Positions 2,634-42,969 of a stretch of DNA of 64,000 bases are shown piece by piece. A program made the translations under genes and the position numbers. A model generated the notes under the pieces. That model made no database searches and was not told where the DNA came from. It saw only the letters and a list, made by a program, of their open reading frames with translations. The DNA lies in NCBI GenBank assembly GCA_029959295.1, contig JASCOH010000001.1, positions 1 through 64,000 of the forward strand, read 5' to 3'. Source of the DNA: Flavobacteriaceae bacterium PS02334 (lineage in GTDB: Bacteria; Bacteroidota; Bacteroidia; Flavobacteriales; Flavobacteriaceae). Each line of letters begins with the position of its first letter. Position 1 is the first letter of the stretch.

Positions 2634-2813
2634 CAACGTCAAACCGTAAAAAGTTTGGCGTTTTTTTATTACATAACACACACTGTAACGCCAATGACAG
2701 CCAAATGATGCCTTTGACAGCCACTTTGTGAGAGTGCTTTGATTTCCGAAACACCTTTGTTCCGAAAGCCCGCAAGGTGTGGGCAAACTGTAACAAATTA
2801 ATGTGTTTCAATT
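2634..2813 (+). repeat. Leader block, copy 2, preceding traE
   Basis: Second copy of the block described at 1606-1777. In this copy the dyad before the start is stronger: GCCC GCAAGGTGT GGGC. It ends directly at the traE start codon and is presumed to carry the tra operon promoter and 5' UTR. Confidence 0.75.
2637..2667 (+). terminator. Rho-independent terminator before the tra operon
   Basis: Stem CGTCAAAC (2637-2644) pairs with GTTTGGCG (2653-2660), followed by seven T. It is the counterpart of the hairpin at 1609. Confidence 0.75.
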
Positions 2814-3119: not shown

Positions 3120-3130
3120 TCCTTTGCCTT

Positions 3131-24571: not shown

Positions 24572-25378
24572 TCAGGCGACTTTTAAGGGTTGGGTTAGGA
24601 AGTTCTTCAGATTAAGAAAGAAACCTCTGTTTTCGGTCATTCCATAACGAAACATAGACCATAATAACGAACAACCCATTTGAGCCAATGTTGCATTGAT
24701 ATACAAATCCTGTTTTTCCAATGCTTCGGCTAAACTGCAACTTGGGGTATCGTCTATTTGTTCGGACTGTTTCAGCAGTTCGCCAAATTCATCTGTAACC
24801 ATTGGCAGGCTTGCTACCGTTTCGTACTTCTCGGAGTTGGGTTGTTTAATTTCTCCGATAGTAGATAGTATGACTTGTCCTGTCTGTTGGCTGTTACCAA
24901 AGTCTAACCAATACTTTGGTTCGTCACGATTGGCTCTGCGTTTGCTCATTGCTTTTAGCATTTCTGCAATGTCAAACCGTGCCTGTACATTGTCCACACA
25001 GGTAATGAAAATCGTTGCCTTTGCATTTTCGGGCAATCCACCGAAATTATTCCTTTCAAACTTTTGGGTTTCCGCTTTCCAATTCGTACCCATAAACCGA
25101 TTGACACGGTTTATCAATGCTACCGATTTGTACAAGCCTGTTTCACTTGGTGCAAATCGCTGTCTGCCCAAATTGGCTTCCGTGATAATATCATCATCCC
25201 ACAAACGCACCTGCAATCCTGCGTGTTCCAATTCTGTTAAACTGTGGCTCATTTCCATTAAAGCGGTCAGCACCTTTGAACCTGTGCCACCTGCACCAAT
25301 CAAATTAACCTCAATCGGGTTAGTCGGGCTTATCAAATAGTTGTCCGTAAAATGAACGGCTGTTTTTACTGTTTCCAT
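24572..25378 (-). CDS. PRTRC system ThiF-family protein
   Basis: A 268-residue E1/ThiF-like protein: nucleotide-binding loop NLIGAGGTGSKV (about 25-36), acidic RLWDDDIITEANLGRQRF (ATP/Mg contacts), FITCVDNVQAR, and a conserved CSLAEAL (about 225) where activating enzymes carry their thiol-ester Cys. ThiF members adenylate the C-terminus of a small partner; the partner in PRTRC systems is unproven. The start overlaps the stop of PRTRC B by 1 bp. It is the last gene of the PRTRC operon before the cassette region. Confidence 0.9.
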   Translation of the reverse strand: METVKTAVHFTDNYLISPTNPIEVNLIGAGGTGSKVLTALMEMSHSLTELEHAGLQVRLWDDDIITEANLGRQRFAPSETGLYKSVALINRVNRFMGTNWKAETQKFERNNFGGLPENAKATIFITCVDNVQARFDIAEMLKAMSKRRANRDEPKYWLDFGNSQQTGQVILSTIGEIKQPNSEKYETVASLPMVTDEFGELLKQSEQIDDTPSCSLAEALEKQDLYINATLAQMGCSLLWSMFRYGMTENRGFFLNLKNFLTQPLKVA

Positions 25379-26112
25379 TACAATAGATTTTTAAGGGTTT
25401 TGTTATTTGGTTTCAATACTTCTTTTGGAAAAGGTTTATCTGTGTTTACTAGGTCTTTCCAAAGGCTTACACAATTGCCCTTTATCGGATTATGTTTGCC
25501 TAACAAATGGCTGAAATAGGAATTGAAAAAATAATATTCCCAAGCCTGTATAAACTCTTCCACCGAAGCGGATTTTTTAATATCTACGCTTACCGTTCCC
25601 ATACAGACTTTGCCGTCTTCATAGATGTTGAAATAAGGCGTATGATACAATTTCGTTTTCTCGTTGGGTCTTCTATCACTTGAAAGGGCAAACACGCTCA
25701 AACCGTTTTTACTAGCTTTCCAAAGCATGGGTGGTATTGGTGCTTTTCCGTTGGGTATGCCCAAACTTTCTACAAAATACAGTTGCCTTTGCTGTGCTTT
25801 GGTGTACCAAATGACTGCACCTTTATCCGCATTGGGGTTGATGTGCAAAATGTTGGTTGGCAAAATTCCGTTCGATTTCAAAAAGGCTTTGTTATTTTCC
25901 TGTTCGGTATTGAGTGCCTTTGCCAATACATTTGCTTCTTTTACCGTCAAAGGGTGGGCATTGATAGGATTACCGTTTTTGTCCATATCAAAATGCTCTA
26001 CATATACATCGGTATTGCTTCCTTTGGTTTCATAGAATACCAAAGCCGATTTTGGGTGGTACAATGTGCCGAAGTCCTGTGTTATGTCGTTAATCGTTTC
26101 CATAATATCCAA
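25378..26112 (-). CDS. PRTRC system protein B
   Basis: The 244-residue protein matches PRTRC protein B in length and pattern (LYHPKSALVFYE, HPLTVKEANVLAKAL, VIWYTKAQQRQLYFV, PPMLWKASKNGL, YHTPYFNIYEDGKVCMG). Its function is unknown; it is always linked with the ThiF and C/E proteins on plasmids and ICEs. An alternative start is Met4 (26103). It is coupled to ThiF downstream. Confidence 0.9.
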   Translation of the reverse strand: MDIMETINDITQDFGTLYHPKSALVFYETKGSNTDVYVEHFDMDKNGNPINAHPLTVKEANVLAKALNTEQENNKAFLKSNGILPTNILHINPNADKGAVIWYTKAQQRQLYFVESLGIPNGKAPIPPMLWKASKNGLSVFALSSDRRPNEKTKLYHTPYFNIYEDGKVCMGTVSVDIKKSASVEEFIQAWEYYFFNSYFSHLLGKHNPIKGNCVSLWKDLVNTDKPFPKEVLKPNNKTLKNLL

Positions 26113-26113
26113 T

Positions 26114-27268
26114 TTATAAGGTGTGTAAAATGTCGCTTAATTTGTGCAGTAGTTCAAACAATCGGTTTTCAAAACAAAGGTTGTTGGCGGTTATATCCCT
26201 GCCGTCAAACTGCTTTTGGATAATGGGTTCTTCCATTTGTCCGTACTCCTGCATTTCGGTATTGACCGATTCTATAAGGGTTTCATTAAGCCAACCTTTG
26301 TGGTCAGCATAGAATGAAATATACTTTTCCATTCCGATAATGTTCTCCATATCTTCTTCCGATGCTTCTCCGTTGGGTTTCGCATTACGGAATACATTTT
26401 CATTCGGATAGGTCTGATAAAGGGCAAAGGTTTCTTTTGCTACGTTTAAACAGTCGGTATCAAAATCATCTTTGACTTTAAAACTGTTGATACGCTGTTC
26501 AAATACAGTCAGATTAATGCGGTTATAAATCCGCTGTTCTATATAATTCCCGATGTATTCTGCTTGTTTGATTTCGGAAAGATATACTTCCGTTTCATCC
26601 GTATAATCGTCCTGTTCAACCCAATCGTTCATCATTTCGTACATCCAATACAGATAGCTTGCTTCTTGCCTGTAATACGGAATATCGGCTATATGGTAGA
26701 GATAGGCACAAACGGATAACAATAAATGAGCGTTACCTTTTCGTTTGCGATTGTGCAACATTCGGTATAAGGAAGCAACGGGAATGTAAAAAAGTGTTGA
26801 GCCTGTATTGTAACGTTCTTCACTTACAAAGTAGGTTTTCTTGCTATCCTGTACCAAACGAATTTCTTCCCAATCCAAGACCTTTTGTTTCAATTTTTCT
26901 TCCATATCCGACATTGCCAAAGCCATATTGTAAGGATATGGAAATTGTTTACTCTGCATCGGTTCAATTTGGTAATGCTCGGCAAGTTTGGAAAGGGACT
27001 GAAAAAAATCCCTTTCCGTTTTATCTGATTTCCTACAAGCCTGTATGGTTTTCGTTTCTTTCAGTTTAGGCAGAAACGTACTCTTTAGAAAACCATTGGC
27101 AACATGGCTGTCGGTACTGATTTGCGTTTGTCTTTCCGCACTTCGTTTGTATCCTTTGGCTTTTGCATCCAATTGGCGAACTCGTTTAATTGGCGGTGCA
27201 ATTGCCGTTGTCTTTGCTGTTCGGGTATTGTGATAGTTCCCGATATGATATGTTTGTGCATAGTTCAT
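26114..27268 (-). CDS. PRTRC-linked hypothetical protein
   Basis: The 384-residue protein is soluble and mostly helical, with a basic disordered N-terminus (about 1-60) and a conserved-looking central region (SLYRMLHNRKRKGNAHLLLSV, ASYLYWMYEMMNDW). No family name is known to me, but it is embedded between PRTRC C and B with 1-17 bp gaps, so it probably belongs to the same operon and process. Confidence 0.82.
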   Translation of the reverse strand: MNYAQTYHIGNYHNTRTAKTTAIAPPIKRVRQLDAKAKGYKRSAERQTQISTDSHVANGFLKSTFLPKLKETKTIQACRKSDKTERDFFQSLSKLAEHYQIEPMQSKQFPYPYNMALAMSDMEEKLKQKVLDWEEIRLVQDSKKTYFVSEERYNTGSTLFYIPVASLYRMLHNRKRKGNAHLLLSVCAYLYHIADIPYYRQEASYLYWMYEMMNDWVEQDDYTDETEVYLSEIKQAEYIGNYIEQRIYNRINLTVFEQRINSFKVKDDFDTDCLNVAKETFALYQTYPNENVFRNAKPNGEASEEDMENIIGMEKYISFYADHKGWLNETLIESVNTEMQEYGQMEEPIIQKQFDGRDITANNLCFENRLFELLHKLSDILHTL

Positions 27269-27285
27269 TACTTTAAATATTTGGT

Positions 27286-27513
27286 TTAACCTTTCGTTCC
27301 CATTACGCTCTCAAATTTGTATTCTACTGCATCATCTTTTATCTGCGGTGCAGATGCTTTTGCCGTTGTGAGTATCGGGTACATATTGGCGTAAAAATTC
27401 ATTACGGCTTCCACGCTCCAACGTGGTTCGGGGTCGGTCAGTCTGATGTCCTGTCCTTTATCTTTGAGTATAAACACTCGTTCTAATTGCGTTGCTAATA
27501 ACATAATGCTCAT
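27286..27513 (-). CDS. PRTRC system protein C
   Basis: The 75-residue protein matches PRTRC protein C: an N-terminal strand (RVFILKDKGQDIRLTDPEP) and WSVEAVMNFYANMYPILTTA, the usual family core. It ends VMGTKG; small size and a C-terminal Gly make it a conceivable substrate for the ThiF-like enzyme, which is inference. It lies 8 bp after PRTRC E. Confidence 0.9.
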   Translation of the reverse strand: MSIMLLATQLERVFILKDKGQDIRLTDPEPRWSVEAVMNFYANMYPILTTAKASAPQIKDDAVEYKFESVMGTKG

Positions 27514-27521
27514 TTTTATTG

Positions 27522-28163
27522 TTAATACGCTGTTTCTTCTTCGCCTGTTTCATCTATGGGATAATCGGCTGTAACTTTTTCCGTTTTTGGCGGTTCGGGT
27601 GTGGTTTCTTCCTCTTGGCTCGGTTCGGGTTGCGGTTCTTCCGCTTCTCCGAAAAGGCTTGGTGTAGCGAATTTTGCAGACAATGCCGTTTTGCGTTTGC
27701 GTATCTCGTCCGCTTTTTCGGGAAACTCGGTTATGTCGGGAACTTTTATCCACGCTTCACGGAATTTGCCCTCTTTTTCGAGTTCGTCAGCCTTTGCCAT
27801 TCCATCTTTAAACTTCTTGTCTTTGGCTTCTTTTTCCTTTTTGGCTTTCTCGGTTTTTTCTTTCTCCATTGCCGATTGCTTTTTGACTTCTTCCATTTGT
27901 TTTAGGAATTTTTCCATATCCACCATTACGCCCGAAACGGTTTTGATAGGTGCTTGTATCTGATTGAAAAATTCCTCGTCAAACTCTTGGGGAGTGGCAT
28001 TAAATGTCAATGGGGGAATGAGGTTTTTGGCGTTATCTCCGCATTGTTCGTTGTTGAGTAAAACCGATACGATTAAGTTATTTTCTGCTCCTTTGGAAAT
28101 GTTCAGTTGCAATACTCCTGTAAAGTCCAAAGCTTGTATCTGATTGAAAAAATTGGTATTCAT
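27522..28163 (-). CDS. PRTRC system protein E
   Basis: A 213-residue protein with the PRTRC E N-terminal domain (FFNQIQALDFTGVLQLNISKG, LIPPLTFNATPQEFDEEF). A Lys/Glu coiled coil follows (about 85-130), then an acidic Pro-rich tail. It is the first PRTRC gene in transcription order and follows the small unknown genes by 12 bp. The antisense Phe-rich frame here is a shadow of its charged repeats. Confidence 0.9.
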   Translation of the reverse strand: MNTNFFNQIQALDFTGVLQLNISKGAENNLIVSVLLNNEQCGDNAKNLIPPLTFNATPQEFDEEFFNQIQAPIKTVSGVMVDMEKFLKQMEEVKKQSAMEKEKTEKAKKEKEAKDKKFKDGMAKADELEKEGKFREAWIKVPDITEFPEKADEIRKRKTALSAKFATPSLFGEAEEPQPEPSQEEETTPEPPKTEKVTADYPIDETGEEETAY

Positions 28164-28175
28164 CGTTCTGAAATT

Positions 28176-28370
28176 TTAATTGTTATCTGTTCGTTTTTTG
28201 ATTGCTGTGAGTTTCTCGTGTATATCTGTCCAATAGGCTTTTTGCCTTTTGTCGAACTCGGAAAAACTTTTATCCTCGTGGCTGTATCCTGTATTGCGTT
28301 TTGCTATTTTGATAGCTTCCTTTAGGTTGGTTACTTCAATTTCGCAACCGTTCAAATCCGTTATTTTCAT
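28176..28370 (-). CDS. Small hypothetical protein
   Basis: 64 residues, beginning MKITDLNGCEIEVTNLKEAI, then a charged helical segment. No family recognised. Its start overlaps the preceding stop by 4 bp (28367-28370), so it is translationally coupled within the PRTRC-region operon. Confidence 0.75.
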   Translation of the reverse strand: MKITDLNGCEIEVTNLKEAIKIAKRNTGYSHEDKSFSEFDKRQKAYWTDIHEKLTAIKKRTDNN

Positions 28371-28810
28371 AACTGCTCAAGTATTGGGGTTAATGGAAAT
28401 TCCTCTGTCCAAAATTCTTCGCTCGTGTGCTTTCCGTAAGCCTTGTACATCGCTGTTCCTGTTTTGTACATTACAAGCCTGTAACAGTCCAAGCGATTTT
28501 CGGGTACGGAAAGGGTTTCCAATTCTTCTTTATCCACTTCCACGAATACCATAGGCTTATTTTCAAGCCATTTGTATAAATCGGGATTGTCGTCTTCGTC
28601 AGCCGTATAAAAATCTACTGCCGTATCGTAATAGTTCAGTGATTGTAAGAAATAATCTTCTGCAAATGGCTTAACCATTTCAAGCCGTTTTGCCTGTTCC
28701 TTTTTCCAATCTTCGGTAATGTGGACAATGGCAAAATTGCAATTGTCCCATTCGCTGTTAGTACCTGCTTTGAGTAGTACGTATTCTGTTGGTTTATCTG
28801 ATAGTTTCAT
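28367..28810 (-). CDS. Hypothetical protein (ICE core region)
   Basis: A 147-residue acidic soluble protein, beginning MKLSDKPTEYVLLKAGTNSEWDNCNFAIVHI, with DFYTADEDDNPDLYKWL mid-region. No family recognised. It sits in the same-direction run of small genes between the DUF932 and PRTRC genes and overlaps the next by 4 bp. Confidence 0.78.
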   Translation of the reverse strand: MKLSDKPTEYVLLKAGTNSEWDNCNFAIVHITEDWKKEQAKRLEMVKPFAEDYFLQSLNYYDTAVDFYTADEDDNPDLYKWLENKPMVFVEVDKEELETLSVPENRLDCYRLVMYKTGTAMYKAYGKHTSEEFWTEEFPLTPILEQL

Positions 28811-28829
28811 TTTTGATTGCTTTAAATTG

Positions 28830-29168
28830 TTACTTACTGATTTCTGCTATCTGGTCAATCCTGCCATAAACAATAGTTCTAAGGCTTGTTTTGTCGGGGG
28901 CGTTGTATTCTGCCCAACTGCCGTACTGCTTTACCACATAGGTTTTTAATACATCTTCAAACCCGAAGCGATAACCCTGCAAGGGAACGGCTCGTTTGAA
29001 GAAAGCATTTCGGTTTACGGCTTCTGCAAGCCAGTTCTTTTCGGCTCGGTTCATCTTTTCGCCTTTGTTGAGTTTTTCCCTTAACAGATAGACCTTTGCA
29101 TTTTGCAGGGTTTTCAGTTCGGGTACATCGTGGCGGACAAACTTTGTGGCTATTACTTTTGTTTCCAT
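28830..29168 (-). CDS. Hypothetical protein (ICE core region)
   Basis: A 112-residue basic protein with the conserved-looking KGEKMNRAEKNWLAEAVN and YRFGFEDVLKTYVVKQYGSW. I do not recognise a family. It is co-directional with its neighbours, with gaps of 19 and 11 bp. Confidence 0.78.
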   Translation of the reverse strand: METKVIATKFVRHDVPELKTLQNAKVYLLREKLNKGEKMNRAEKNWLAEAVNRNAFFKRAVPLQGYRFGFEDVLKTYVVKQYGSWAEYNAPDKTSLRTIVYGRIDQIAEISK

Positions 29169-29179
29169 TGTGTTTGCTT

Positions 29180-29662
29180 TTAAGATTGATAAATGGCGAT
29201 TTTCCGTTCCAATAGGGTTTCCAATATCTCGTAATCGCTTTCGTATTCTTCGCCCTCAAAATGGTAGGTGTCCGTTTCTTCATCGAACTCGTATTGCTCA
29301 AATTCTTCTTCGTCCAAATAAATATCTGTGAGTAGCTTGTCAGAAAAGATTGCCCTGCCACATATACAGTTACCCATTTCCTCATAGTCCTGTGTGAAAC
29401 TCACGTTATAGTGTTCTGCTATCGCTTGTACTACCTCAATATTGGGCGACCATTTTGTTTCGTACTGAAATATGCCTGTAACATCATCGTCTTGATAGAT
29501 GTCGAAGAAATAGCCACCGTTACTGTCCTCTACAAAGTCGGGCAGTTGTCCGCAATTTTCTTCCTGTTGTTTTTCAGCCATTGATTTGAATAGCTGTTGT
29601 ATCTGTTCGATTGCTTCGGGTTCTCCCTCGAAAACAACCGTATTGCTACACCAATTTGCCAT
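29180..29662 (-). CDS. YubB/DUF1281-like ferredoxin-fold protein
   Basis: The 160-residue acidic protein starts MANWCSNTVVFEGEPEAI, the signature start of plasmid YubB/DUF1281-type proteins, and continues with IFQYETKWSPNIEVVQAIAEHY and the C-x-C CICGRA. Function unknown; such genes are common on conjugative elements. It lies between small unknown genes on the same strand. Confidence 0.78.
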   Translation of the reverse strand: MANWCSNTVVFEGEPEAIEQIQQLFKSMAEKQQEENCGQLPDFVEDSNGGYFFDIYQDDDVTGIFQYETKWSPNIEVVQAIAEHYNVSFTQDYEEMGNCICGRAIFSDKLLTDIYLDEEEFEQYEFDEETDTYHFEGEEYESDYEILETLLERKIAIYQS

Positions 29663-29682
29663 AATTGTATATTGTTTAAGGG

Positions 29683-30066
29683 TTATGAATGTGATTTTTC
29701 AGCGGTGTAAATGCCATTTACATAGTAGCCGAATGACTGCTCCCAAAGGCGTATTAAACCGTCCGTGTCTATGTAGAAATACTCCGTACGATTGCAGTAG
29801 ATAATATGTACTGTTTCGTCCTTGTGCTTCTTTTCAAGGCTCTTGCCTTTAGCCAATTCTTTTGCTTCCTCTATGTTTTTTGCTTTCATATCCTGCTGTT
29901 TTGTATCGTTATCAATCTTCACTATATCCACAATGGCACATTCGGGACAACCCTCTGTGGTTGTTATCTGCTGTATAGCTCCCTGCTTTCCACTTAATGA
30001 AAATACCCTTAGCATTGTCGTACCTGTGTCGTGCTTCAGCGTTGCTTCATATATCTCTATTGTCAT
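29683..30066 (-). CDS. Hypothetical protein (ICE core region)
   Basis: 127 residues with a CPEC pair (EGCPECAIVDIVKID) and a later IIYCNRTEYFYIDTDGLIRLW strand-rich region. No family recognised. It follows the DUF932 gene by 52 bp and is in the same transcriptional direction. Confidence 0.77.
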   Translation of the reverse strand: MTIEIYEATLKHDTGTTMLRVFSLSGKQGAIQQITTTEGCPECAIVDIVKIDNDTKQQDMKAKNIEEAKELAKGKSLEKKHKDETVHIIYCNRTEYFYIDTDGLIRLWEQSFGYYVNGIYTAEKSHS

Positions 30067-30118
30067 GGCTGTTGTTTATAGTAGGCTACCACCGTTTAAG
30101 GCGGTAGCCTGTGATTAT

Positions 30119-31192
30119 TTAATTAAGGTTTAGGATTTCCACACCGTCCAAAGCAAATGAGGTACACAATTCAAATGCTTTCTGCGATTTCAGTTGGGCA
30201 GTACCACCGAGTACAATACTTTGTAGCTTGGCTTCATCATTCTTGTAATTCCTTACATTCTGATAGTAGCCTGTCACAGCGTTATACGCTCCGAACAATG
30301 TGCCTTTAGTTGTGTCCATTTGTTGGGTATCGCTCATCATCGCATAGCTGAAAGCATCATCAACTACATTTTTGAATACGGTGGAAACTTCATCTTCAGC
30401 ACCTTTTTTGAGTAGGTCAAGCGTTTCCTTGTTTGGGCAAAGTGCCAATTGGATTAACTTTCTTACTTCTCGGTCTGTAACTTTTACCTTTGTCCACTCA
30501 TTGAATATGCCCTCTAATTGGTTGCTCAATGTGTTAGCCAATCCCATAATCTTGTGAGCGTTCTCGATACGTTGTTTTGCTCCCGAAGTGTGTTTGATAC
30601 GGACTACATTGGTCATACTGCGTAATGAGGCATTCAGCGTATTTTGGCATACAATCCTAATGGGAGTAAAAGCGGCTGTAATACTGCCCGAACCATCGTG
30701 CGAAGTGGTTAGGAAAATATACTTCTCGGTTACATCATCGCCATTTCCTACTCGGATATAGTCGGGGAGTTTGGCTGTAATAAAAATCCGTTCTCCGTTG
30801 CCCAATGCTCCTGCGGTTTCGTATAGAATACCCTCGCCACCTCCTACAATAGCATCAAAGAAATTAAAGGCTTCACGGTTTTGTACAATGTGGTAATCCT
30901 TACCGACCACGCCCAATACTGTATTGTTATCGGTGCGTATGTTGGCGAAATAGTTAGGTACTTCCAATTCGCTACTGCCTATCTCTATACCGTTGGCGGT
31001 TTCGATAATACCCGAACCTTTGGTAAACAGTGGGGATTTAACCACCTCATAATCTAATCCTGCGTGTCGGATAGCTTCTTCGCTCGTTGGGTATTGTTCG
31101 ACAATCTGCCCCAAACCGTGCCACGCTTTTTGCTGTACTGAAAAGAAACTGTGCTTTCCTGTTCTCTCGTTGAAATGAATGTTATGTGCCAT
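30119..31192 (-). CDS. DUF932 (phage/plasmid-like) protein
   Basis: A 357-residue protein with the DUF932 pattern: an N-terminal WHGLGQIVEQYPTSEEAIRHAGLDYEV, VLGVVGKDYHIVQNREAF, TSHDGSGSITAAFTPIRIVCQNTL, and a C-terminal region with TKGTLFGAYNAVTGYYQNVRN. The family (TIGR03299-like) is common on plasmids, phages and ICEs; its biochemical role is unknown. It lies 44 bp downstream of ssb and leads the block of small genes. Confidence 0.9.
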   Translation of the reverse strand: MAHNIHFNERTGKHSFFSVQQKAWHGLGQIVEQYPTSEEAIRHAGLDYEVVKSPLFTKGSGIIETANGIEIGSSELEVPNYFANIRTDNNTVLGVVGKDYHIVQNREAFNFFDAIVGGGEGILYETAGALGNGERIFITAKLPDYIRVGNGDDVTEKYIFLTTSHDGSGSITAAFTPIRIVCQNTLNASLRSMTNVVRIKHTSGAKQRIENAHKIMGLANTLSNQLEGIFNEWTKVKVTDREVRKLIQLALCPNKETLDLLKKGAEDEVSTVFKNVVDDAFSYAMMSDTQQMDTTKGTLFGAYNAVTGYYQNVRNYKNDEAKLQSIVLGGTAQLKSQKAFELCTSFALDGVEILNLN

Positions 31193-31236
31193 TTTGATAA
31201 AATTTTGAAGTTTGAAAAATGATTAAATGATTGTTG

Positions 31237-31629
31237 TTAGAATGGTAGGTCGTCTTCTGTGCCTTTCCCTGCTGTACTGTTGCTTCCTGTTTGTACAGTA
31301 GCTTGTACGGTTTCGGTTCTCTTACTACCTCCATACAGTTTGATGTTTGAGGTATGGAAATTCAGTCCTGCTCTCGGCTGTCCGTCATTGCCTGTCCACG
31401 CTCTTGTGCTTACTCGTCCTGTGAGTTCTACCAAAGTGCCTTTTGTGAGTAGGGTGGCTACCTTTGCAGAAATCCAATAAGAGCAGTCGAAATAGGTGGT
31501 TTGCTCAATGCGTTCGCCCTGCTTGTTTTTGTAGCTGTCGTTGGTTGCTACTGAAAAGTTTACTACTTGTTTGTCTTGTGACGTTGTGCGTACTTCCGCA
31601 TCTCTCGTCAATCGTCCGATGATGTTCAT
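31237..31629 (-). CDS. ssb: Single-stranded DNA-binding protein
   Basis: The 130-residue protein has an SSB OB-fold (MNIIGRLTRDAEVRTT, VVNFSVATNDSYKNKQG, TYFDCSYWI, LVELTGRVSTRAW) and the canonical acidic tail DDLPF for partner recruitment. I start at ATG 31629, preceded by a purine-rich AAACAGGAACG, rather than the longer frame from 31776, since the OB-fold begins there. It is the element's own SSB, probably used in transfer and replication of the ICE. Confidence 0.92.
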   Translation of the reverse strand: MNIIGRLTRDAEVRTTSQDKQVVNFSVATNDSYKNKQGERIEQTTYFDCSYWISAKVATLLTKGTLVELTGRVSTRAWTGNDGQPRAGLNFHTSNIKLYGGSKRTETVQATVQTGSNSTAGKGTEDDLPF

Positions 31630-31907
31630 AATCGTTCCTGTTTTAAAAGTTTTACATTTTGTTACGTTCGCTTTTCTCGTTTCCTGCTTCCTGTTGGTGT
31701 TTGCTCCGCTTCGCTTCGCATAAATTTTTCCAAAAGAAAAACCGGAAAAAAGAAAGCAGACTATCAAGGCGGTCAAGAGGAAAAGCCAAAAGGAAACGGA
31801 ATAATTGGAGGGTACCTTTAGGGAGGAAACCGTTTATGCCGTAGTCTTTTGGGTGGGATTGAGCGTGGGTGACCGCCGTACTTTGGCTGCCTTTTTACCG
31901 GTTGATT

Positions 31908-32039
31908 ATGGAAATATTCCGTCTTAAATTTCATGGGATAATTGACCAGGCAATGAAAGCCTGTGATAGAGATTTGAAAAACATTGAAGAGGGAAATGAA
32001 TTGGCGAAGTGTTTTTCAATTTCCTATATCAATAAGTAG
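31908..32039 (+). CDS. Possible 43-residue ORF in the ssb-integrase gap
   Basis: A short plus-strand frame, MEIFRLKFHGIIDQ onwards, with a plausible charged composition. The rest of the 31630-32163 gap is noncoding on what I can see: a purine-rich stretch, a GC-rich segment (31840-31890) and AT-rich sequence before int. Low support. Confidence 0.25.
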   Translation: MEIFRLKFHGIIDQAMKACDRDLKNIEEGNELAKCFSISYINK

Positions 32040-32163
32040 TCAAAAGCTCTTTTACTGCGAGGAGAGTGCGAAAGAGGTAAATGTGCTTAGGCTACAAAAA
32101 GTAAGGACATAAAAAAAGCAGAACCATTATGGTCCTGCTCTGTTTTGAAGTGATAAAAGCTGA

Positions 32164-33414
32164 TCAGAGGGCTGTAAGAAATGCTTCTTCCATCGCCTGA
32201 AACTTTGGTGCAACTAAATCCATATCCTTGCTGATTTTTTGGCTTGTGATCTTAGCATAAATCTGTGTAGTAGAAATATTTTTATGTCCCATCATTTTAC
32301 TTAAACTTTCGAGCGGTACGCCTTCGGTCAAAAACATTGTTCCAAAGGTGTGTCTTGCCGTGTGAAAAGTTACTTTTTGTTCTGTGATAATCTCAGCTGT
32401 TTCAATCAGTTTAGTAACGTGGTTATTGCAGGTTACATTAGTAGGAACCGGAAAGATAAATTCATTACGTGTAGTACCAATATACTTTTCTATAATACGT
32501 TTTGGAATTTCCATTAACCGAACGTTGGAAGCAATATCTGATTTTTTTCTCCTGCTGATAATCCATTGATGACCGTCAAAGAAAGACTGAATATTATTCC
32601 TTGTCAATTTTTTAATATCCGCATAAGCAAGGCCGGTAAAACAACTAAAAATAAAAAGGTCTTTTACAAGTTCGTATCTCGGATGTGGCGGTATGCACAT
32701 CATCAGCTTTTCTACATCTTCTTTAAGGATATAACCCCGGTCGGTTTCTTCCATATTGATTTCATAATCCTGAAAAGGATTATCACGTATTAAGCCTTTC
32801 TTAATAGCCAGCTCTACTAAACTTAATACAGGCATTGTATAAACCCACACTGTATTATGTGAAGACTTTAGGTCGTAACGAAGATAGAAGTCAAATTCAC
32901 GGATAAAATCACCCGTTAATTCACGGAAAGCCATATCATCACGGTGGTAGCGTTCTTTTATAAACGTTGTAAGATGATTGTAGACTGTGATATACTTATT
33001 GTAAGTGCTTTGTGATCTTTCTTCCTTTTCGACCAGTTTTTTAAAATTCTCATTTTGGTCGTTGAAGACTTTCAGTATAGCATCATCCATTACACCTACA
33101 CCTAAAAATACCAGCTTTACTTTTTGGGCTGTAGCAAAACCTTCGTGCTTCAGCATATCGTCATAAATTTTGTCGATTCTCCCTCGAATGTTATCCAGTT
33201 TTTGGTTAATATTCAAAGCTGTGGCACTTTTACCCTCAACCCGTCCGTATTTCAAATCCCAATTTTTCGGATTAATTTCTAACTTTGTTCCTAAAGTTTT
33301 AGGTGTCCCATCAATGGTGATACGCGCCATAATTGGTGCGTTACCATTCTTTTTCAGTTCGTTCTTTTTCAAGTAGAAAAGTAGTTTGAACGTGGACTTT
33401 TTTGTCTGTTCCAT
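32164..33414 (-). CDS. int: Tyrosine integrase of the ICE
   Basis: A 416-residue tyrosine recombinase of the Bacteroidetes ICE type: an N-terminal arm-binding domain (about 1-110), a SAM-like core-binding domain (about 115-215) and the catalytic domain. HxxR is HTAR (351-354), the third-box His is in GHKN (H377) and the nucleophile is Tyr386 (IYAKI). The first catalytic Arg position reads TGLAYAD (A263), a change also known in CTnDOT-type integrases. It lies at the element's end and probably recombines sites just beyond 33.4 kb. Confidence 0.93.
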   Translation of the reverse strand: MEQTKKSTFKLLFYLKKNELKKNGNAPIMARITIDGTPKTLGTKLEINPKNWDLKYGRVEGKSATALNINQKLDNIRGRIDKIYDDMLKHEGFATAQKVKLVFLGVGVMDDAILKVFNDQNENFKKLVEKEERSQSTYNKYITVYNHLTTFIKERYHRDDMAFRELTGDFIREFDFYLRYDLKSSHNTVWVYTMPVLSLVELAIKKGLIRDNPFQDYEINMEETDRGYILKEDVEKLMMCIPPHPRYELVKDLFIFSCFTGLAYADIKKLTRNNIQSFFDGHQWIISRRKKSDIASNVRLMEIPKRIIEKYIGTTRNEFIFPVPTNVTCNNHVTKLIETAEIITEQKVTFHTARHTFGTMFLTEGVPLESLSKMMGHKNISTTQIYAKITSQKISKDMDLVAPKFQAMEEAFLTAL

Positions 33415-36466: not shown

Positions 36467-37237
36467 ATGAAAATTGCCACCTATAACGTAAATGGAATCA
36501 ATGGCCACCTTTCGGTACTGCTCAAGTGGCTGGAAGAATCCGCTCCTGATATTGTCTGCCTGCAGGAGCTCAAGGCACCCCAGGACAATTTTCCTCATGA
36601 GGCAATCAGTTCCGCAGGTTACAATGCGGTCTGGAATGGACAAAAGCAATGGAACGGTGTTGCGATACTTGCAAAGGGGATGGAGATTCAGGAAGTCGGC
36701 AGAATCCTTCCTGGAGATCCTGAAGATATGCAGAGTCGCTACCTGGAGGCACTCGTCGGGGGAATCGTGGTTGCCTGCATCTATCTTCCGAACGGAAATC
36801 CTGCCCCTGGGCCGAAGCTGGATTACAAGATGCGGTGGATGGAGAGGCTCTCTGCAAGAGCGAAAGTATTGCTGGAGCACAAGGTGCCCGTTGCGATTGC
36901 AGGCGATTTTAATGCAATTCCCACCGAACTTGACGTGTATAAGCCCGAGAAATACAAGGAGGATGCGCTGTTTTGCATTGAAGTCCGGGAAGCATTCCGT
37001 TCTCTTGTAAATCAGGGATGGACTGACAGCATAAGATCTCTTTATCCTGATGAGACCATATATACATTTTGGGATTATTTTAGGAGCGCCTATTCTAGAA
37101 ATGCCGGGATGCGCATCGACCACTTTCTCCTGAGTCCAGAGCTGGCAGGAAGGCTTCAGTCTGGCGGCGTGGATAAAGATGTAAGAGGATGGGAAAAGAC
37201 CAGCGACCATGCGCCTGTATGGATCCAGATAGCCTGA
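36467..37237 (+). CDS. xth: Exodeoxyribonuclease III
   Basis: The 256-residue protein has all EEP-family motifs of ExoIII: MKIATYNVNGI, LQELKAPQ (metal-binding Glu), AGDFNAIP, a FRSAYSRNAGMRIDHFL tract with the DHxL-type Asp, and SDHAPV (catalytic His). It acts in base-excision repair as AP endonuclease and 3'-5' exonuclease. It stands alone, with a TAACTTTAG box near 36439 as a weak promoter. Confidence 0.93.
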   Translation: MKIATYNVNGINGHLSVLLKWLEESAPDIVCLQELKAPQDNFPHEAISSAGYNAVWNGQKQWNGVAILAKGMEIQEVGRILPGDPEDMQSRYLEALVGGIVVACIYLPNGNPAPGPKLDYKMRWMERLSARAKVLLEHKVPVAIAGDFNAIPTELDVYKPEKYKEDALFCIEVREAFRSLVNQGWTDSIRSLYPDETIYTFWDYFRSAYSRNAGMRIDHFLLSPELAGRLQSGGVDKDVRGWEKTSDHAPVWIQIA

Positions 37238-37577
37238 TGCAAAAGAATAAAATTTCTAGATCATATCTGTTTTTTTTGGAAGCGAGGAAAATAAATGCGT
37301 CCAAAGGAAATTCGAGCAATCCGGGATAAATGTAGTCCTTTTTCCTGGAAACTAACATCTTAACAATGACTTCGACGTGGTAGCCGAGACAGCCATAAAA
37401 GAATATCAGGCCCCAATAGGCGGACGAAGGCAAAACTAGGCAAAACTCCACATTTTTGGACACAAAGAACTTTAGCACCCGGCCATGAAATCCCATGCGA
37501 GAATAGGCAGCAATAAAAATAAAATAATTGCGAATAACATGGTGGCATTCCATGTTTTATGCCTAAATTGCTGTATT
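37238..37577. other. Gap between xth and the type III PKS operon
   Basis: A minus-strand frame (from 37553) gives hydrophobic stretches but runs into antisense of xth and matches nothing I know. I see no terminator or clear promoter. The region may hold a remnant or the operon's 5' UTR. Confidence 0.4.
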
Positions 37578-38711
37578 ATGCAAACAAATCCTGACGTGAT
37601 TATTATTGGTGGCGGTCTTGCAGGTCTTGCGGGAGCAATACATCTATCCAGGCAAGGACTGGAGGTAACCCTGATTGAAAAGTCAGCTTACCCGCGCCAC
37701 AAAGTATGCGGTGAATACATTTCTAGCGAAATCCTGCCCTATCTGGATTGGCTGGGCGTAGATATTCTTCAGTTGCATCCTGCAAAAATTAACCATCTTG
37801 AGTTTACTTCAGGCCATGGAAAAGCTCTCAGAGCAAGACTTCCGCTAGGAGGTTTGGGCATCAGTCGCCATTCGCTGGATAATTTTTTATGCCAAAAAGC
37901 GATAGCAAGCGGCTGTACTATAATCAAGGCCACAGTTACGGCTGCTACTTTTGCGGATGATGCATTTTCAGTTACAGCCCAAAATCAAATTTTAACAGCA
38001 AAAATAGTATTGGGGGCCTACGGAAAGCGTTCCAATATCGACCAAATACTATCGCGCGGTTTTATCAATAAAAAAGCACCATGGCTGGCCGTAAAGGGCC
38101 ATTATTCAGGTAATTTTCCTGACAGTGTCGTGGCGCTCCACAACTTTAAGGGAGGCTACTGCGGCGTTTCCAAGGTTGAAGATAATATCATAAACATCTG
38201 CTACCTGGCCGATTTCAAGACCTTTAAGAAATACAGAAACATAGAGGATTACCAGCGCAACGTGATGTACAAAAATAAGCACATCAGGTCTGTTTTTGAA
38301 AACAGCATGCCCCTTTTTGAAAAGCCACTCACCATAAGCCAGATCTCATTTGAAAAAAAACGGGTCGTGGAAAACCATATGCTGATGATAGGCGACACTG
38401 CAGGTCTCATCCATCCGCTTTGCGGCAACGGCATGGCGATGGCTGTCAAAGCGGCTAAAATTGCATCAGAACTCGTATTGGACTACTACTCCGGAAAGAT
38501 AGCATCGCGGCAGCTGCTGGAGCGTGCCTACACCCGACAGTGGAAGAAACATTTTGGCAGGCGATTGCTTGCAGGCAGGCTTCTATCGAAAGTACTGAGG
38601 CGTGAAACCGCTACTGCAGCACTAGTAAGCATGGCGGCGGCGGTCCCAACGCTGCTGCCCTGGATAGTCAAGCAGACCCACGGCAAACCAATACCAATCA
38701 AATGGCCATAA
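37578..38711 (+). CDS. FAD-dependent oxidoreductase (geranylgeranyl-reductase-like) of the PKS operon
   Basis: The 377-residue flavoprotein has the Rossmann GGGLAGLAGAIHL (FAD ADP loop), YPRHKVCGEYIS, and GDTAGLIHPLCGNGMAMAVKAA (second FAD motif). The fold is the p-hydroxybenzoate hydroxylase/geranylgeranyl reductase group. In other type III PKS clusters such flavoproteins hydroxylate or oxidise alkylresorcinols to quinones; that role is inferred. ATG 37578 is chosen because upstream residues in the longer frame are not conserved-looking. The 3' end overlaps the methyltransferase by 10 bp. Confidence 0.88.
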   Translation: MQTNPDVIIIGGGLAGLAGAIHLSRQGLEVTLIEKSAYPRHKVCGEYISSEILPYLDWLGVDILQLHPAKINHLEFTSGHGKALRARLPLGGLGISRHSLDNFLCQKAIASGCTIIKATVTAATFADDAFSVTAQNQILTAKIVLGAYGKRSNIDQILSRGFINKKAPWLAVKGHYSGNFPDSVVALHNFKGGYCGVSKVEDNIINICYLADFKTFKKYRNIEDYQRNVMYKNKHIRSVFENSMPLFEKPLTISQISFEKKRVVENHMLMIGDTAGLIHPLCGNGMAMAVKAAKIASELVLDYYSGKIASRQLLERAYTRQWKKHFGRRLLAGRLLSKVLRRETATAALVSMAAAVPTLLPWIVKQTHGKPIPIKWP

Positions 38712-39415
38712 GTACCAAATACAGGACAGAGCAAACCGAAATGATGGATGATTTTTCAATCCAGGGTGAAGAGCTGCGAGAAGCCTTGGATAAGATCGCG
38801 AGCATCAACCAGCTCCTAGGTGGCAACAGGCTCACGCTAAGTGGTGTAAAGCAATTACTAGAAAGGTCGGATGTTTCCGAGCAGGTAGTGATTGCCGATA
38901 TAGGTTGCGGCAACGGCGACATGCTCCGGATGCTGGCCACTTACGCAAGAAAAAACAGCCTTAACCTTAAGATGGTCGGCGTGGACGCCAATCCCTTTAC
39001 TATAAATTATGCCCGAATGCTGTCAAGCGACTACCAAGATATAGAATATGTCTGCACCGATATCTTCAGCAAGGATTTCATTGCCCTAAGATATGATATC
39101 GTTTTATGCACCCTTACCCTGCACCATTTTACCAATGCGCAAATAATAAATATAATCACTACCTTTAATGACAATGCGTCCATGGGAATCATAGTAAACG
39201 ATCTGCACCGCAGCAGGTTGGCATACCGGCTTTTTCAAATAATCTGCGTCCTCTTTGGCCTAAACAGAATGTCGAGGCAGGACGGGCTCGTATCAATATT
39301 GAGGGGATTTAAGAGAAACGAGCTGGTAAGCTTCTCCAAGGCCTTAAAATTAAAAAATTATACCGTCCAGTGGAAATGGGCTTTCCGCTACCAATGGATA
39401 ATTTCTAAAATATGA
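38702..39415 (+). CDS. SAM-dependent methyltransferase of the PKS operon
   Basis: A 237-residue class I methyltransferase: motif I VIADIGCGNGDMLRML (about 62-77), acidic GVDANP (motif II), VLCTLTLHHFT (motif IV). Related enzymes next to type III PKSs O- or C-methylate phenolic lipids or pyrones. It overlaps the gene before it by 10 bp and the next (PKS) by 4 bp, so it is part of a coupled operon. Confidence 0.88.
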   Translation: MAISTKYRTEQTEMMDDFSIQGEELREALDKIASINQLLGGNRLTLSGVKQLLERSDVSEQVVIADIGCGNGDMLRMLATYARKNSLNLKMVGVDANPFTINYARMLSSDYQDIEYVCTDIFSKDFIALRYDIVLCTLTLHHFTNAQIINIITTFNDNASMGIIVNDLHRSRLAYRLFQIICVLFGLNRMSRQDGLVSILRGFKRNELVSFSKALKLKNYTVQWKWAFRYQWIISKI

Positions 39416-40464
39416 GCGTAAAGATAATAACTGTTGCAAAGCAACTTCCGCAATATTCGCGCACCACAGCCGACATCCTTCCATTACTGGATATATGGTT
39501 GCAGGGGCAGGACGCACGCTTTATAAAAAAAGTAAAAAAGATATTTGAAGGCGCGGCAGTAGACAAGCGCTATTCTATCATGGACCCCGCTGAAGTCTTC
39601 ACGGCCACATCGTTTGAAGATAAGAATAATATCTACTGCAGGGAAGCCGTTATTCTAGGAACGCAGGTTCTTGAAAAAGCGCTGGCCAAGGTAGGCTGGG
39701 AACCAAAATCCCTCGACTATATCATTACGGTAAGCTGTACGGGCATCATGATTCCATCCTTGGATGCCTACCTTATAAACAAGATGAAGCTCCGGCAGGA
39801 CATCGTAAGGCTGCCCGTTACCGAAATGGGCTGTGCCGCAGGGGTATCCGGCATTCTGTATGCCAAAAACTTCCTTAAGGCTAATCCTGGGAAGCGGGCT
39901 GCTGTAATAGCGGTCGAATCTCCTACGGCAACATTCCAGCTTGATGATTTTTCGATGCCAAATATTGTGAGCGCCGCCATCTTCGGCGACGGGGCTGCCT
40001 GTTGCCTGCTGTCATCTTATGAAAAAGACTACGGGCCAGCGATTCTCGACGAGCAGATGTACCATTTTTATGATGCCGAGCAGATGATGGGTTTCAAGCT
40101 CACCAACGGCGGCTTGCAAATGGTACTGGATATAGCAGTTCCCGATGCCATCGCATCGCATTTTAGCGATATCATACATCCTTTCCTGCAAAAAAATAAT
40201 CTGGAAATCAATGATATAGATCACATGGTATTTCATCCCGGGGGTAAAAAGATAGTAGCCATTGTCGAGACACTTTTTTCGGGATTGGGAAAGAATATCG
40301 ACGACACCAAAGAGGTGCTCAAGCAGTACGGCAACATGTCCAGTGCCACTGTTCTCTATGTGTTGGAGCGTATTATGGAACGAAAGCCACTGCCAGGGGA
40401 AAAAGGGCTGATGCTGAGTTTCGGCCCAGGATTTTCAGCACAGCGGATCTTGTTGCAATGGTAA
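39412..40464 (+). CDS. Type III polyketide synthase
   Basis: A 350-residue chalcone/stilbene-synthase-like enzyme. The catalytic Cys is at about 141 (TEMGCAAGVSG), His at about 275 (FHPGGKKI) and Asn at about 308 (YGNMSSAT), giving the intact type III triad. ITVSCTGIMIPSLDA is another family block. Such enzymes condense malonyl units on an acyl starter and cyclise to alkylresorcinols, alkylpyrones or related phenols. The adjacent ACP/KAS suggests the starter is delivered by an ACP. It overlaps the methyltransferase by 4 bp. Confidence 0.95.
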   Translation: MSVKIITVAKQLPQYSRTTADILPLLDIWLQGQDARFIKKVKKIFEGAAVDKRYSIMDPAEVFTATSFEDKNNIYCREAVILGTQVLEKALAKVGWEPKSLDYIITVSCTGIMIPSLDAYLINKMKLRQDIVRLPVTEMGCAAGVSGILYAKNFLKANPGKRAAVIAVESPTATFQLDDFSMPNIVSAAIFGDGAACCLLSSYEKDYGPAILDEQMYHFYDAEQMMGFKLTNGGLQMVLDIAVPDAIASHFSDIIHPFLQKNNLEINDIDHMVFHPGGKKIVAIVETLFSGLGKNIDDTKEVLKQYGNMSSATVLYVLERIMERKPLPGEKGLMLSFGPGFSAQRILLQW

Positions 40465-40485
40465 TTACTATAAAATAAACAGACC

Positions 40486-40923
40486 ATGAACCTAAATGAT
40501 ATTATGGCACAACTGCCCTACAGCAAGCCTTTTTTATTTGTAGACGAATTGCTGCATGCCGATGAAAATGGCATTACGGGCACTTACACTTTTGATGAAA
40601 GCCTTGATTTTTACAAAGGCCATTTTAAGGGAAACCCGGTAACTCCGGGAGTGATCCTGACAGAAACCATGGCGCAGATAGGCATGGTCTGCCTGGGAAT
40701 CTATCTGCTCGATAACAACCTGAAAAAAGATACCGTAATCGCATTCACATCTGCCGACATGCAGTTTCTAAAACCAGTTTACCCCAATGAAAAAGTCACA
40801 GTAACTTCCCAAAAGACATTTTTCAGGTTCGGAAAGCTCAAGTGTGCAGCGGTCATGAAAAACGAAGCCGGACAGGAAGTCTGCAGGGGCATTCTATCCG
40901 GAATGATAACTGCCAGGCTATGA
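40486..40923 (+). CDS. FabZ-like 3-hydroxyacyl-ACP dehydratase
   Basis: A 145-residue hotdog-fold protein: YKGHFKGNPVTPGVILTETMAQ carries the catalytic His (about 46) and acidic Glu (about 60). It should dehydrate beta-hydroxyacyl-ACP during starter-chain synthesis. It is 21 bp after the PKS and overlaps the ketoacyl synthase start (ATGA). Confidence 0.9.
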   Translation: MNLNDIMAQLPYSKPFLFVDELLHADENGITGTYTFDESLDFYKGHFKGNPVTPGVILTETMAQIGMVCLGIYLLDNNLKKDTVIAFTSADMQFLKPVYPNEKVTVTSQKTFFRFGKLKCAAVMKNEAGQEVCRGILSGMITARL

Positions 40924-42203
40924 ACAGGAGAGTTGTAATAACAGGCCTGGGAGTAGTTTCTCCAAACGGGGTCGGGGTTCCTGCGTTTACCCATGCCATA
41001 AAAAATGGAATCTCTGGCATACGGCACGATATGCAGCTACAGGAATTGCAATTCTCCTGCCAAATAGCAGGCCAGCCCCAAATTACAGACGAACTCAAGT
41101 CGGAATATTTTACCGATCTTGAACTCCGCGGGTTCGGCAGCACGGGAATACTATATGGCGTCATTGCAGGCATCGAAGCCTGGAAAAATGCCGGACTACC
41201 TATGCAAGTAAGTGAGGAGCCCGATTGGGACAGCGGGACTGTTTTCGGCTCGGGCACATCGGGCATTGATAAATTTCGCGAAAGCATCTACAAAATAGAC
41301 GCACTGCAAACCCGCAGGCTTGGCAGCACCGTAGTTGCTCAGACCATGAACAGCGGCATCAGCGCCTGGCTCGGCGGAAAGCTGGGGCTTGGAAACCAAG
41401 TCACTACAAATTCTTCTGCCTGTGCAACAGGAACCGAAGCAATCATGATGGCCTTCGACCGCATACGTTCCGGACAGGCCAAGCGCATGCTGGCTGGCAG
41501 CACCGGAGATAGCGGTCCCTATATATGGGCAGGATTCGACGCCCTGCGTGTGTGCAGCTCAAAATATAACGACAGCCCACATGAAGGCTCCCGCCCCATG
41601 AGCGCCACGGCTTCGGGATTCGTGCCCGGAAGCGGTGCCGGTGCGATGGTAGTCGAAGAACTGGAAAGCGCGCTTAGACGCGGCGCAACCATCTATGCCG
41701 AGATATTGGGCGGCAATGTAAATTCCGGCGGGCAGCGCGGGAGCGGTAGCATGACCGCTCCCAACAGCCATGCCGTGCAGCGGTGCATCACCGATGCGCT
41801 TCAAAATGCAGGCATTTCGGGAGCTGACGTCGATGCCATAAACGGGCATCTTACCGCAACAGCAAAAGACAGCCTGGAAATTGAGAACTGGACAAAAGCG
41901 CTGAACCGACACGGGGATAAATTTCCCTATATCAATTCCTTGAAAAGCATGACGGGGCATTGCCTTAGCGCTGCCGGAAGCATTGAGAGCGTAGCCGCGG
42001 TACTGCAGCTGCACCAGGGCTTCCTATTCGGCAATACCAACTGCGATAACCTGCATCCGGAGATCGCCGCACTTGCCGATCCTTCAAAAATACCATTAAA
42101 AACGGCCAACATTAACTTGGAGATAATCGCCAAGGCAAGTTTTGGCTTTGGCGATGTAAACGCCTGTATACTATTTAAAAAATTTGACAACCTTACATTA
42201 TGA
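40920..42203 (+). CDS. Beta-ketoacyl-ACP synthase (KAS II-like)
   Basis: The 427-residue thiolase-fold enzyme has Cys about 168 (SSACATGTEA), His about 310 (NGHLTAT) and His about 347 (SMTGHCLSAAG), the full Claisen triad. The usual AHGT(S/G)T block reads GHLTAT, an unusual Gly-to-Leu change beside the catalytic His. I start at ATG 40920 (MNRRVVITGLG), not 40842. It probably elongates acyl-ACP for the type III PKS. It overlaps both neighbours by 4 bp. Confidence 0.92.
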   Translation: MNRRVVITGLGVVSPNGVGVPAFTHAIKNGISGIRHDMQLQELQFSCQIAGQPQITDELKSEYFTDLELRGFGSTGILYGVIAGIEAWKNAGLPMQVSEEPDWDSGTVFGSGTSGIDKFRESIYKIDALQTRRLGSTVVAQTMNSGISAWLGGKLGLGNQVTTNSSACATGTEAIMMAFDRIRSGQAKRMLAGSTGDSGPYIWAGFDALRVCSSKYNDSPHEGSRPMSATASGFVPGSGAGAMVVEELESALRRGATIYAEILGGNVNSGGQRGSGSMTAPNSHAVQRCITDALQNAGISGADVDAINGHLTATAKDSLEIENWTKALNRHGDKFPYINSLKSMTGHCLSAAGSIESVAAVLQLHQGFLFGNTNCDNLHPEIAALADPSKIPLKTANINLEIIAKASFGFGDVNACILFKKFDNLTL

Positions 42204-42454
42204 CTAGAGAAGAAATTATTGCCAAGCTAAAAGTTATCGTAAAGCCCTATGCTGCAAATCATGAAGCTTATGAGAGCCTTACGGAAGATACCGATTTTAT
42301 TACCGACCTCAATATTAATTCGGCCAACCTGGTAGACATTGTACTGGATATTGAAGAAACCTTCGACGTGGTTATCGACAACTCTGATATGGAACGCATG
42401 CTTGATATCAAAACTACGGTTGGGATCATAGAAACCAAACTTGCGGCAAAGTGA
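42200..42454 (+). CDS. Dedicated acyl carrier protein
   Basis: The 84-residue ACP has the four-helix pattern and a phosphopantetheine serine at about 41 in LNINSANLVDIV (canonical DSL replaced by NSA). It carries growing acyl chains for the neighbouring KAS and dehydratase and may hand them to the type III PKS. It overlaps KAS by 4 bp and the PPTase start by 4 bp (GTGA). Confidence 0.9.
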   Translation: MTREEIIAKLKVIVKPYAANHEAYESLTEDTDFITDLNINSANLVDIVLDIEETFDVVIDNSDMERMLDIKTTVGIIETKLAAK

Positions 42455-42969
42455 TAGGCAATGATATCGTAGATTTGATGCAGTCTCGACTTGAGAGCAA
42501 CTGGCAACGGAAAGGCTTTCTAGAAAAAATATTTACAGATAATGAACAGCTGCTCATAGCAAACGACCGAGAGCCCGAAATTATGGTATGGCTGCTATGG
42601 AGCATGAAAGAAGCTGCGTACAAAATATACAACAGGCAGACAAAAACAAGGGAATTTATTCCGAAAAAGCTGGCATGTACAATACTCTCGAAAGACAGAT
42701 TTCATGCTTCAGGCCGAGTTGCTTGCCTTGAAAACACATACCCTACAGAATCAGCCATCACCAAAGACAGCATCCATACTGTAGCTGTCAGCAGTATAGC
42801 AAATTTAGTAGATGTGATTGAGATCGAAAACAAAGGAATCAGAAAAGATGGAAACGGCTTGCCCTACTTCCCTACTTCAAATAATATAATCCAGGATGTT
42901 TCAATCAGCCACCACGGCCGTTTTGAAAAAGTGGTTGCGATTCGAATGGATGTGCAAACAAAAAGCTAG
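42451..42969 (+). CDS. 4'-phosphopantetheinyl transferase
   Basis: The 172-residue PPTase has IGNDIVDL (2-9, metal-binding Asp) and WSMKEAAYK (50-58, Glu and Lys), the hallmark motifs. It would load the ACP at 42200. The start is GTG, overlapping the ACP stop, and the length fits AcpS/Sfp-like single-domain enzymes. It is the last gene of the operon. No terminator is seen after it. Confidence 0.88.
   Translation: MIGNDIVDLMQSRLESNWQRKGFLEKIFTDNEQLLIANDREPEIMVWLLWSMKEAAYKIYNRQTKTREFIPKKLACTILSKDRFHASGRVACLENTYPTESAITKDSIHTVAVSSIANLVDVIEIENKGIRKDGNGLPYFPTSNNIIQDVSISHHGRFEKVVAIRMDVQTKS

Follow-up and report, generated by a model that had tools for sequence, protein, structure and literature searches.

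A type III polyketide synthase operon of Flavobacteriaceae bacterium PS02334 with a linked, putative acyl-supply cassette, and its proposed two-module pathway

Overall organization of the operon

The first 64,000 nucleotides of contig JASCOH010000001.1 of Flavobacteriaceae bacterium PS02334 (assembly GCA_029959295.1, forward strand; hereafter the window) contain an operon of seven genes, in which a FAD-dependent oxidoreductase, a methyltransferase and a type III polyketide synthase (PKS) are followed by a dehydratase (DH), a β-ketoacyl-acyl carrier protein (ACP) synthase (KAS), an ACP and a 4'-phosphopantetheinyl transferase (PPTase). The comparisons described here argue, with a probability of about 0.6, for a two-module operon: the last four genes would form an acyl-supply cassette that feeds the type III PKS, and the product would then be methylated and oxidized to a phenolic or quinone lipid. 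This is, in outline, the interpretation of the original prediction, which was made from the DNA letters and is partly supported by the present results. The genes and the single intergenic gap are as follows.

37578-38711, plus strand: FAD-dependent oxidoreductase of the geranylgeranyl-reductase / QhpG-like superfamily (PF01494, PF05834)
38702-39415, plus strand: class I S-adenosylmethionine (SAM)-dependent methyltransferase, PRK06202-like (PF13649, PF08241)
39412-40464, plus strand: type III PKS, triad Cys141-His275-Asn308 (PF00195, PF02797)
40465-40485, plus strand: 21-bp gap between PKS and DH, the sole non-overlapping junction; in many relatives the site of a short-chain dehydrogenase/reductase (SDR) gene resembling an enoyl reductase (ER)
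40486-40923, plus strand: FabZ/FabA-like hotdog DH, His46 and Glu60 (PF07977)
40920-42203, plus strand: KAS of the FabF/FabB family, Cys168-His310-His347 (PF00109, PF02801)
42200-42454, plus strand: ACP, Ser41 (PF00550)
42451-42969, plus strand: PPTase of the AcpS superfamily, GTG start (PF01648)

The seven genes are real and intact, in the order originally given: each has an open reading frame, and all seven proteins pass the curated Pfam cut-offs, the ACP barely (PF00550, 22 versus 20.8 bits). The compact layout noted earlier, with most genes overlapping by 4-10 bp, is found at five of the six junctions (10, 4, 4, 4 and 4 bp). The PKS exceeds the cut-off of 27 bits for both PF00195 (67.2 bits) and PF02797 (66.1 bits) and has the triad of a type III enzyme. 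The open frame of the FAD enzyme begins at 37485; however, the start at ATG 37578 agrees with the homologues, in which Met1 is nearly invariant. Its best NCBIfam match, the geranylgeranyl reductase family TIGR02032, scores 117.3 bits and lies under the cut-off of 158.8; likewise, the methyltransferase scores 138.9 bits against NF004851, under the cut-off of 243. The longest frame of the KAS starts at 40842. KAS, DH and ACP are discrete single-domain proteins.

The catalytic residues, described as intact in the original prediction, are also invariant among the relatives. The PKS triad is conserved in all 140 aligned sequences, six of which are distant outgroup PKSs. With the window included, the KAS triad and Ser41 of the ACP are found in 107 of 107 rows each, and His46 and Glu60 of the DH in 106 of 106.

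Conservation and distribution

A search of the genome collection with the PKS gave 488 stretches, and the best 80 (L003-L082) were examined; the records of 78 of these bear the names Flavobacterium, Myroides, [Flexibacter] or Flavobacteriaceae, and those of the other two Sphingobacterium. The order FAD enzyme-methyltransferase-PKS is present in all 80 and the complete seven-gene order in 79, the exception being L076, whose contig ends 74 bp beyond the PKS. For this reason, the gene order is not due to chance. A lack of linkage between ACP/KAS and the PKS in relatives, which the original prediction had named as evidence against itself, is not what these loci show.

Whole-genome searches gave a consistent distribution. 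PKS matches with an E value of 1e-100 or better occur in 132 of the 249 genomes of the genus and in 103 of the 299 genomes of the family, one of the latter being split over two frames. In the phylum sample, 23 of 247 genomes have a match at 1e-150 or better, and the other 87 genomes with a PKS match (1e-30 or better) are all at 36% identity or lower. A close KAS (60% identity or more) was found in exactly the same 23 genomes, within approximately 1.6 kb of the PKS; in four of the 23, the KAS match crosses one stop codon. The operon is thus widespread and conserved, and common rather than unusual.

KAS and ACP are present in all 106 operon loci with enough flanking sequence, namely L003-L082 without L076, L115-L134 without L117 (not an orthologue) and L138-L145. 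The FAD enzyme is matched in every locus of L003-L082, L115-L134 (except L117) and L138-L145; its lower number of alignment rows (97) is explained by a query that started 31 codons too early. The PPTase gene is found in 91 of 107 operon loci. In L116, the PKS and FAD-enzyme matches each lie in two reading frames, which could mean a pseudogene or a sequencing error.

In the PKS tree, the nearest named relatives of the window are Flavobacterium. The two Sphingobacterium copies, which carry all seven genes, nest in the Flavobacterium group with supports of 82-93. This placement points to movement of the operon between lineages at least once.

The putative acyl-supply cassette as a separate unit

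In addition to the 23 genomes mentioned above, the phylum search with the KAS returned four genomes having a KAS of 50-52% identity and no close PKS. One of them, G394 (family f3, same class), carries ER-DH-KAS-ACP-PPTase divergent from a cluster containing DarB, the dialkylresorcinol ketosynthase. A search of 121 genomes of f3 revealed the cassette in four further genomes of genus g251, and no cassette KAS at 1e-100 in G502 of the same genus. All five g251 cassette loci (L174, L178-L181) are in a darB neighbourhood, with DarB over the cut-off of NF053539 in each. In three genomes of another family, f23 (L175, L176, L177), the cassette, with an ER in one of the three, stands beside a GNAT-family gene and a family 2 glycosyltransferase and perhaps serves another lipid pathway. 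Seven genomes were found in genus g249 of f3, five having the PKS operon without the ER (L144, L145, L182, L184, L186) and one having it with the ER (L185); the seventh (L183) is described below.

The ER-DH-KAS-ACP(-PPTase) block is therefore a cassette of its own, as its partners are of at least three kinds, of which two form rings. This re-use beside other head genes, including darB, is the chief new support for the earlier proposal of a dedicated acyl-ACP supply.

The genome of PS02334 has a separate set of corresponding genes: an adjacent KAS and ACP on contig C44, a second PPTase on C55, and a 463-aa frame on C33 that contains a FabZ domain and, judged by its length, would be an LpxC-FabZ fusion. 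Each of the two other KAS matched in the genome shares 31% identity with the operon KAS, and one of them adjoins the other ACP. As previously stated, neither a ketoreductase nor an ER is encoded in the window's operon.

Comparison with known systems

The original prediction had taken srsABC of Streptomyces, reportedly a type III PKS with a methyltransferase and a flavoprotein, as the parallel. SrsB is a methyltransferase of the isoprenylcysteine-carboxyl-methyltransferase (ICMT) type. In contrast, all nine Pfam matches of the operon's methyltransferase are to class I SAM enzymes and none is to ICMT, and the operon adds the fatty-acid cassette. Because SrsB belongs to another methyltransferase family, srsABC is not the best parallel and had to be replaced; trios of the hidABC type match better.

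By gene content, hidABC of picocyanobacteria, which directs hierridin formation, is the closest known trio, together with a planctomycete trio: both share the methyltransferase, the oxidoreductase and the type III PKS in one operon. The order in the window (FAD enzyme-methyltransferase-PKS) differs from the hidABC order given there, and the KAS-DH-ACP-PPTase cassette is added. The planctomycete report states that 58 of 96 planctomycete PKS genes share this arrangement with hidABC, that the expressed trio gave alkylresorcinols, and that co-expression led to one methylation (PMC10896814). A route to hierridin from a C14 acyl-ACP has been proposed in another study (PMC8086630).

As for chain supply, the ars genes of Azotobacter are the nearest architectural precedent: dedicated fatty-acid synthase (FAS) genes beside type III PKS genes make the acyl starters, by means of type I FAS/PKS proteins and with chains of C22-C26 (PMC3098273). 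Unlike these, the window encodes discrete type II proteins, and its methyltransferase and FAD enzyme are in the same operon. In the cylindrocyclophane cluster, the type III PKS CylI receives an ACP-bound chain after its elongation (PMC8086630); however, type I PKSs perform the elongation, and the halogenase and dimerizing enzyme of that cluster are not among the seven genes here. In the DarAB/flexirubin neighbourhoods of g251, a homologous ER-DH-KAS-ACP-PPTase cassette is present, but DarB is the enzyme that forms the ring. In L003-L082 and L115-L145, a search at 1e-20 gave no DarB match, and the NCBIfam matches of the PKS and KAS in the window do not include DarB. Koreenceine, the product of a type II pathway of Pseudomonas, was judged not relevant.

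In two surveys of Flavobacteriaceae, type III PKSs account for 9% and 10.74% of the predicted clusters, and the portions of these surveys consulted do not resolve this operon (PMC7440613, PMC10734526). Among the top-ranked titles and abstract openings listed from the open-licence literature, no characterized product of the operon was recognized; a report under another licence is possible. By the present analysis, one common operon of this class divides into a two-module pathway whose logic of chain supply can be tested. If this is true, the operon would represent a type II counterpart in nature to the hand-over from FAS to type III PKS in Azotobacter, and its cassette a modular part standing beside two different ring-forming enzymes. 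The natural variants, with or without the ER and with or without the head genes, would then be useful for studying chain saturation.

Proposed pathway and ring chemistry

We infer the reaction steps, the transfer from acyl-ACP and the product class from the gene content and its conservation. The PPTase would activate the dedicated ACP, on which the KAS would elongate an acyl chain. The keto group would be reduced by the primary FabG, and the DH would then dehydrate the intermediate. The double bond could be reduced by the cassette ER, or by the primary FabI in lineages lacking the ER, such as that of the window; ancestrally, the first module probably had an enoyl reductase besides KAS, DH, ACP and PPTase. 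The type III PKS would take the acyl chain from the ACP, add malonyl-CoA units and cyclize the product to an alkylresorcinol (or an alkylpyrone). Finally, the methyltransferase would methylate, and the flavoenzyme would hydroxylate or oxidize the ring, to give a methylated phenolic or quinone lipid.

The head trio also exists apart from the cassette. Twelve distant Bacteroidota loci were examined, out of the 87 genomes with a distant PKS match; three (L155-L157) have the PKS-methyltransferase-FAD enzyme trio without the cassette, and in the remaining nine the other operon genes have no relative in the vicinity of the type III PKS. In plasmids, the trio surrounds all four methyltransferase matches examined (of 34 plasmid records), once with the PKS on the opposite strand and once with a short oxidoreductase. 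Neither of the two FAD-enzyme matches examined has a PKS nearby. In one Hymenobacter plasmid (L169), the FAD-enzyme relative is beside an isonitrile synthase and a TauD-family gene.

Several results weigh against the two-module pathway. The PPTase gene is not at the locus in 15 of the 19 loci of L115-L134. In L183, DH-KAS-ACP-PPTase occurs with no PKS, methyltransferase or FAD gene within its 19 kb. A scan of the genome with PF00550 (E 0.001) found the other ACP and missed that of the operon. What the planctomycete FAD enzyme does is left open in that report (PMC10896814), and the likeness to hidABC is one of gene content as described. Compared with the trio PKSs, the window's PKS shows 24-33% identity, and the best tree, which does not include HidC, places it separately. 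This means that the hidABC analogy may not extend to the ring chemistry; however, a grouping of the window's PKS with the trio PKSs was not rejected by the approximately unbiased (AU) test (p-AU 0.141). The nearest solved structure is that of Pks11, an α-pyrone synthase (173 bits), followed by the resorcinol enzyme CylI.

The last point leads to the best-surviving alternative, in which the PKS would form an alkyl α-pyrone by two extensions and lactonization, the methyltransferase would O-methylate the 4-hydroxyl group, and the flavoenzyme would act on the chain or as a reductase. Besides Pks11, which is named as a PKS for α-pyrone synthesis, the best NCBIfam match of the FAD enzyme to the geranylgeranyl reductase family, under the cut-off as it is, agrees with this route. 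In contrast, the hidABC-like trio that was expressed gave alkylresorcinols (PMC10896814), and the cassette occurs beside darB, which encodes a resorcinol former. The company of the operon thus seems to favour a resorcinol ring and its nearest solved enzyme a pyrone, and the pyrone route is considered unlikely as a whole.

A DpgA-like function of the PKS was set aside: the match to NF042429 reaches 174 bits, compared with a cut-off of 425, and is generic, as comparable scores are obtained by four PKSs of other bacteria (128-165) and by the L003 orthologue (176).

The enoyl-reductase-like gene of the relatives

The gap between PKS and DH in the window is occupied, in many other family members, by an SDR gene of approximately 260 codons. 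It is present in 25 of 29 small loci (L086-L114) and whole in 18 of 19 larger loci (L115-L134, L117 excluded), two genomes being in both sets. The remaining larger locus, L120, has a remnant of approximately 200 bp, in which, judged by eye, the start of the Rossmann motif and the C-terminal end are kept. In L086 (same genus), L109 and L112 the gene is absent and the DH directly follows the PKS, and in L098 two other genes, neither of them this SDR, lie between PKS and DH (2589-3834). No ER is at this site in the 79 judgeable loci of L003-L082 and in all eight of L138-L145. The original statement that an ER is missing holds for the window's operon, but an ER does belong to the operon family.

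The SDR looks like an enoyl-ACP reductase. The best NCBIfam model was FabL for all five copies scanned, at 117-141 bits compared with a cut-off of 328. Tyr-x6-Lys is the active-site motif of FabI and FabL, and Tyr-x3-Lys that of the FabG type. The former is found in 50 of 50 full-length copies (49 by pattern and L181 by eye, two genomes being counted twice), and Val or Ile occupies the position of the FabG tyrosine. When one copy was searched against the PDB, a gluconate 5-dehydrogenase came first (89.9 bits) and FabL second (86.1 bits). A role as the missing ketoreductase was set aside on the grounds of the FabL model and the Tyr-x6-Lys motif lacking the FabG tyrosine.

The history of the gene was followed on two PKS trees. 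The larger tree (76 rows) was drawn from the 140 PKS rows, a set made without duplicate loci and without L116, whose PKS lies in two frames; the tree holds all 40 rows with the ER, the remnant, 32 rows without the ER including the window, and three of the six outgroups. For the 65-row tree, the outgroups, the ER-carrying rows L115, L121, L089, L093, L111 and L108 and some rows without the ER were dropped, and four new ones were added. At minimum, five changes of state are needed on the 76-row tree and six on the 65-row tree, with modest support. Presence of the ER is likely to be ancestral; this is not certain because the roots rest on long outgroups (76 rows) or on an imperfect one (65 rows). 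With at least five changes of state, loss of the ER seems recurrent: apparently it was lost several times, in the window's lineage too. By tblastn, no ER remnant was found in the longer PKS-DH gaps (109-558 bp) of some L003-L082 loci. Relocation of the ER elsewhere in the genome of PS02334 was also considered and rejected: the SDR paralogues with long alignments are at most 30% identical, and two short partial matches reach 39-41%. In a pattern search, three of the four nearest SDR paralogues have Tyr-x3-Lys and one has neither motif.

It should be mentioned that L121 has kept the ER-like gene and lacks the DH. The constancy of KAS and ACP, as described above, and the variability of DH and ER fit an interpretation in which DH and ER may be replaced by enzymes of primary FAS but KAS and ACP may not.

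A doubtful alternative, ranked below the pyrone route, would give the ER-less cassette a product of its own: a conjugated polyenoyl-ACP, converted by the PKS to a polyenyl resorcinol or pyrone pigment. The uniform presence of KAS, DH and ACP without the ER in the judgeable L003-L082 loci and in L138-L145, and the repeated changes from a seemingly ancestral ER, are consistent with this. However, enoyl reduction could be supplied by the primary FabI, the window's operon has no ketoreductase, a KAS pairing specific to polyenes was not seen, and L121 suggests that primary FAS can simply stand in for the reductive enzymes.

More speculative still, and rather improbable in its full extent, is the idea of a portable type II cassette of Bacteroidota that swaps head enzymes (the PKS trio, DarAB, or GNAT/glycosyltransferase), in which repeated ER loss would give a polyenyl tail and the common Flavobacterium operon would make a new class of pigment-lipid, unsaturated and of the phenolic or quinone type.

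Finally, the view of KAS, DH and ACP as spare fatty-acid genes merely co-transcribed with an independent, acyl-CoA-using type III PKS has in its favour the cassettes without a PKS (L174-L181 and L183) and the nine distant loci with a PKS alone, but is very improbable in the face of the joint occurrence of PKS and KAS in the same 23 genomes, the order kept even in the two Sphingobacterium copies, and the low identity of the KAS to the other KAS of the genome.

Genomic setting

Just upstream of the operon, on the minus strand at 24572-33414, are genes of a PRTRC-type element (ThiF, Prok-E2_D, PRTRC protein E), DUF932, a single-stranded DNA-binding protein (SSB) and a tyrosine integrase. No tRNA was found within the window. 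In the region 36467-42969, the G+C content is 0.47 for the operon and 0.50 for xth, compared with 0.355 for 43-64 kb. The orthologous operons of L003-L082 have a median of 0.363 and a highest value of 0.454, under that of the window's operon. A G+C content above both the surroundings and the orthologues suggests that the operon was recently acquired, and, taken with the integrase, that it may belong with the neighbouring mobile element.

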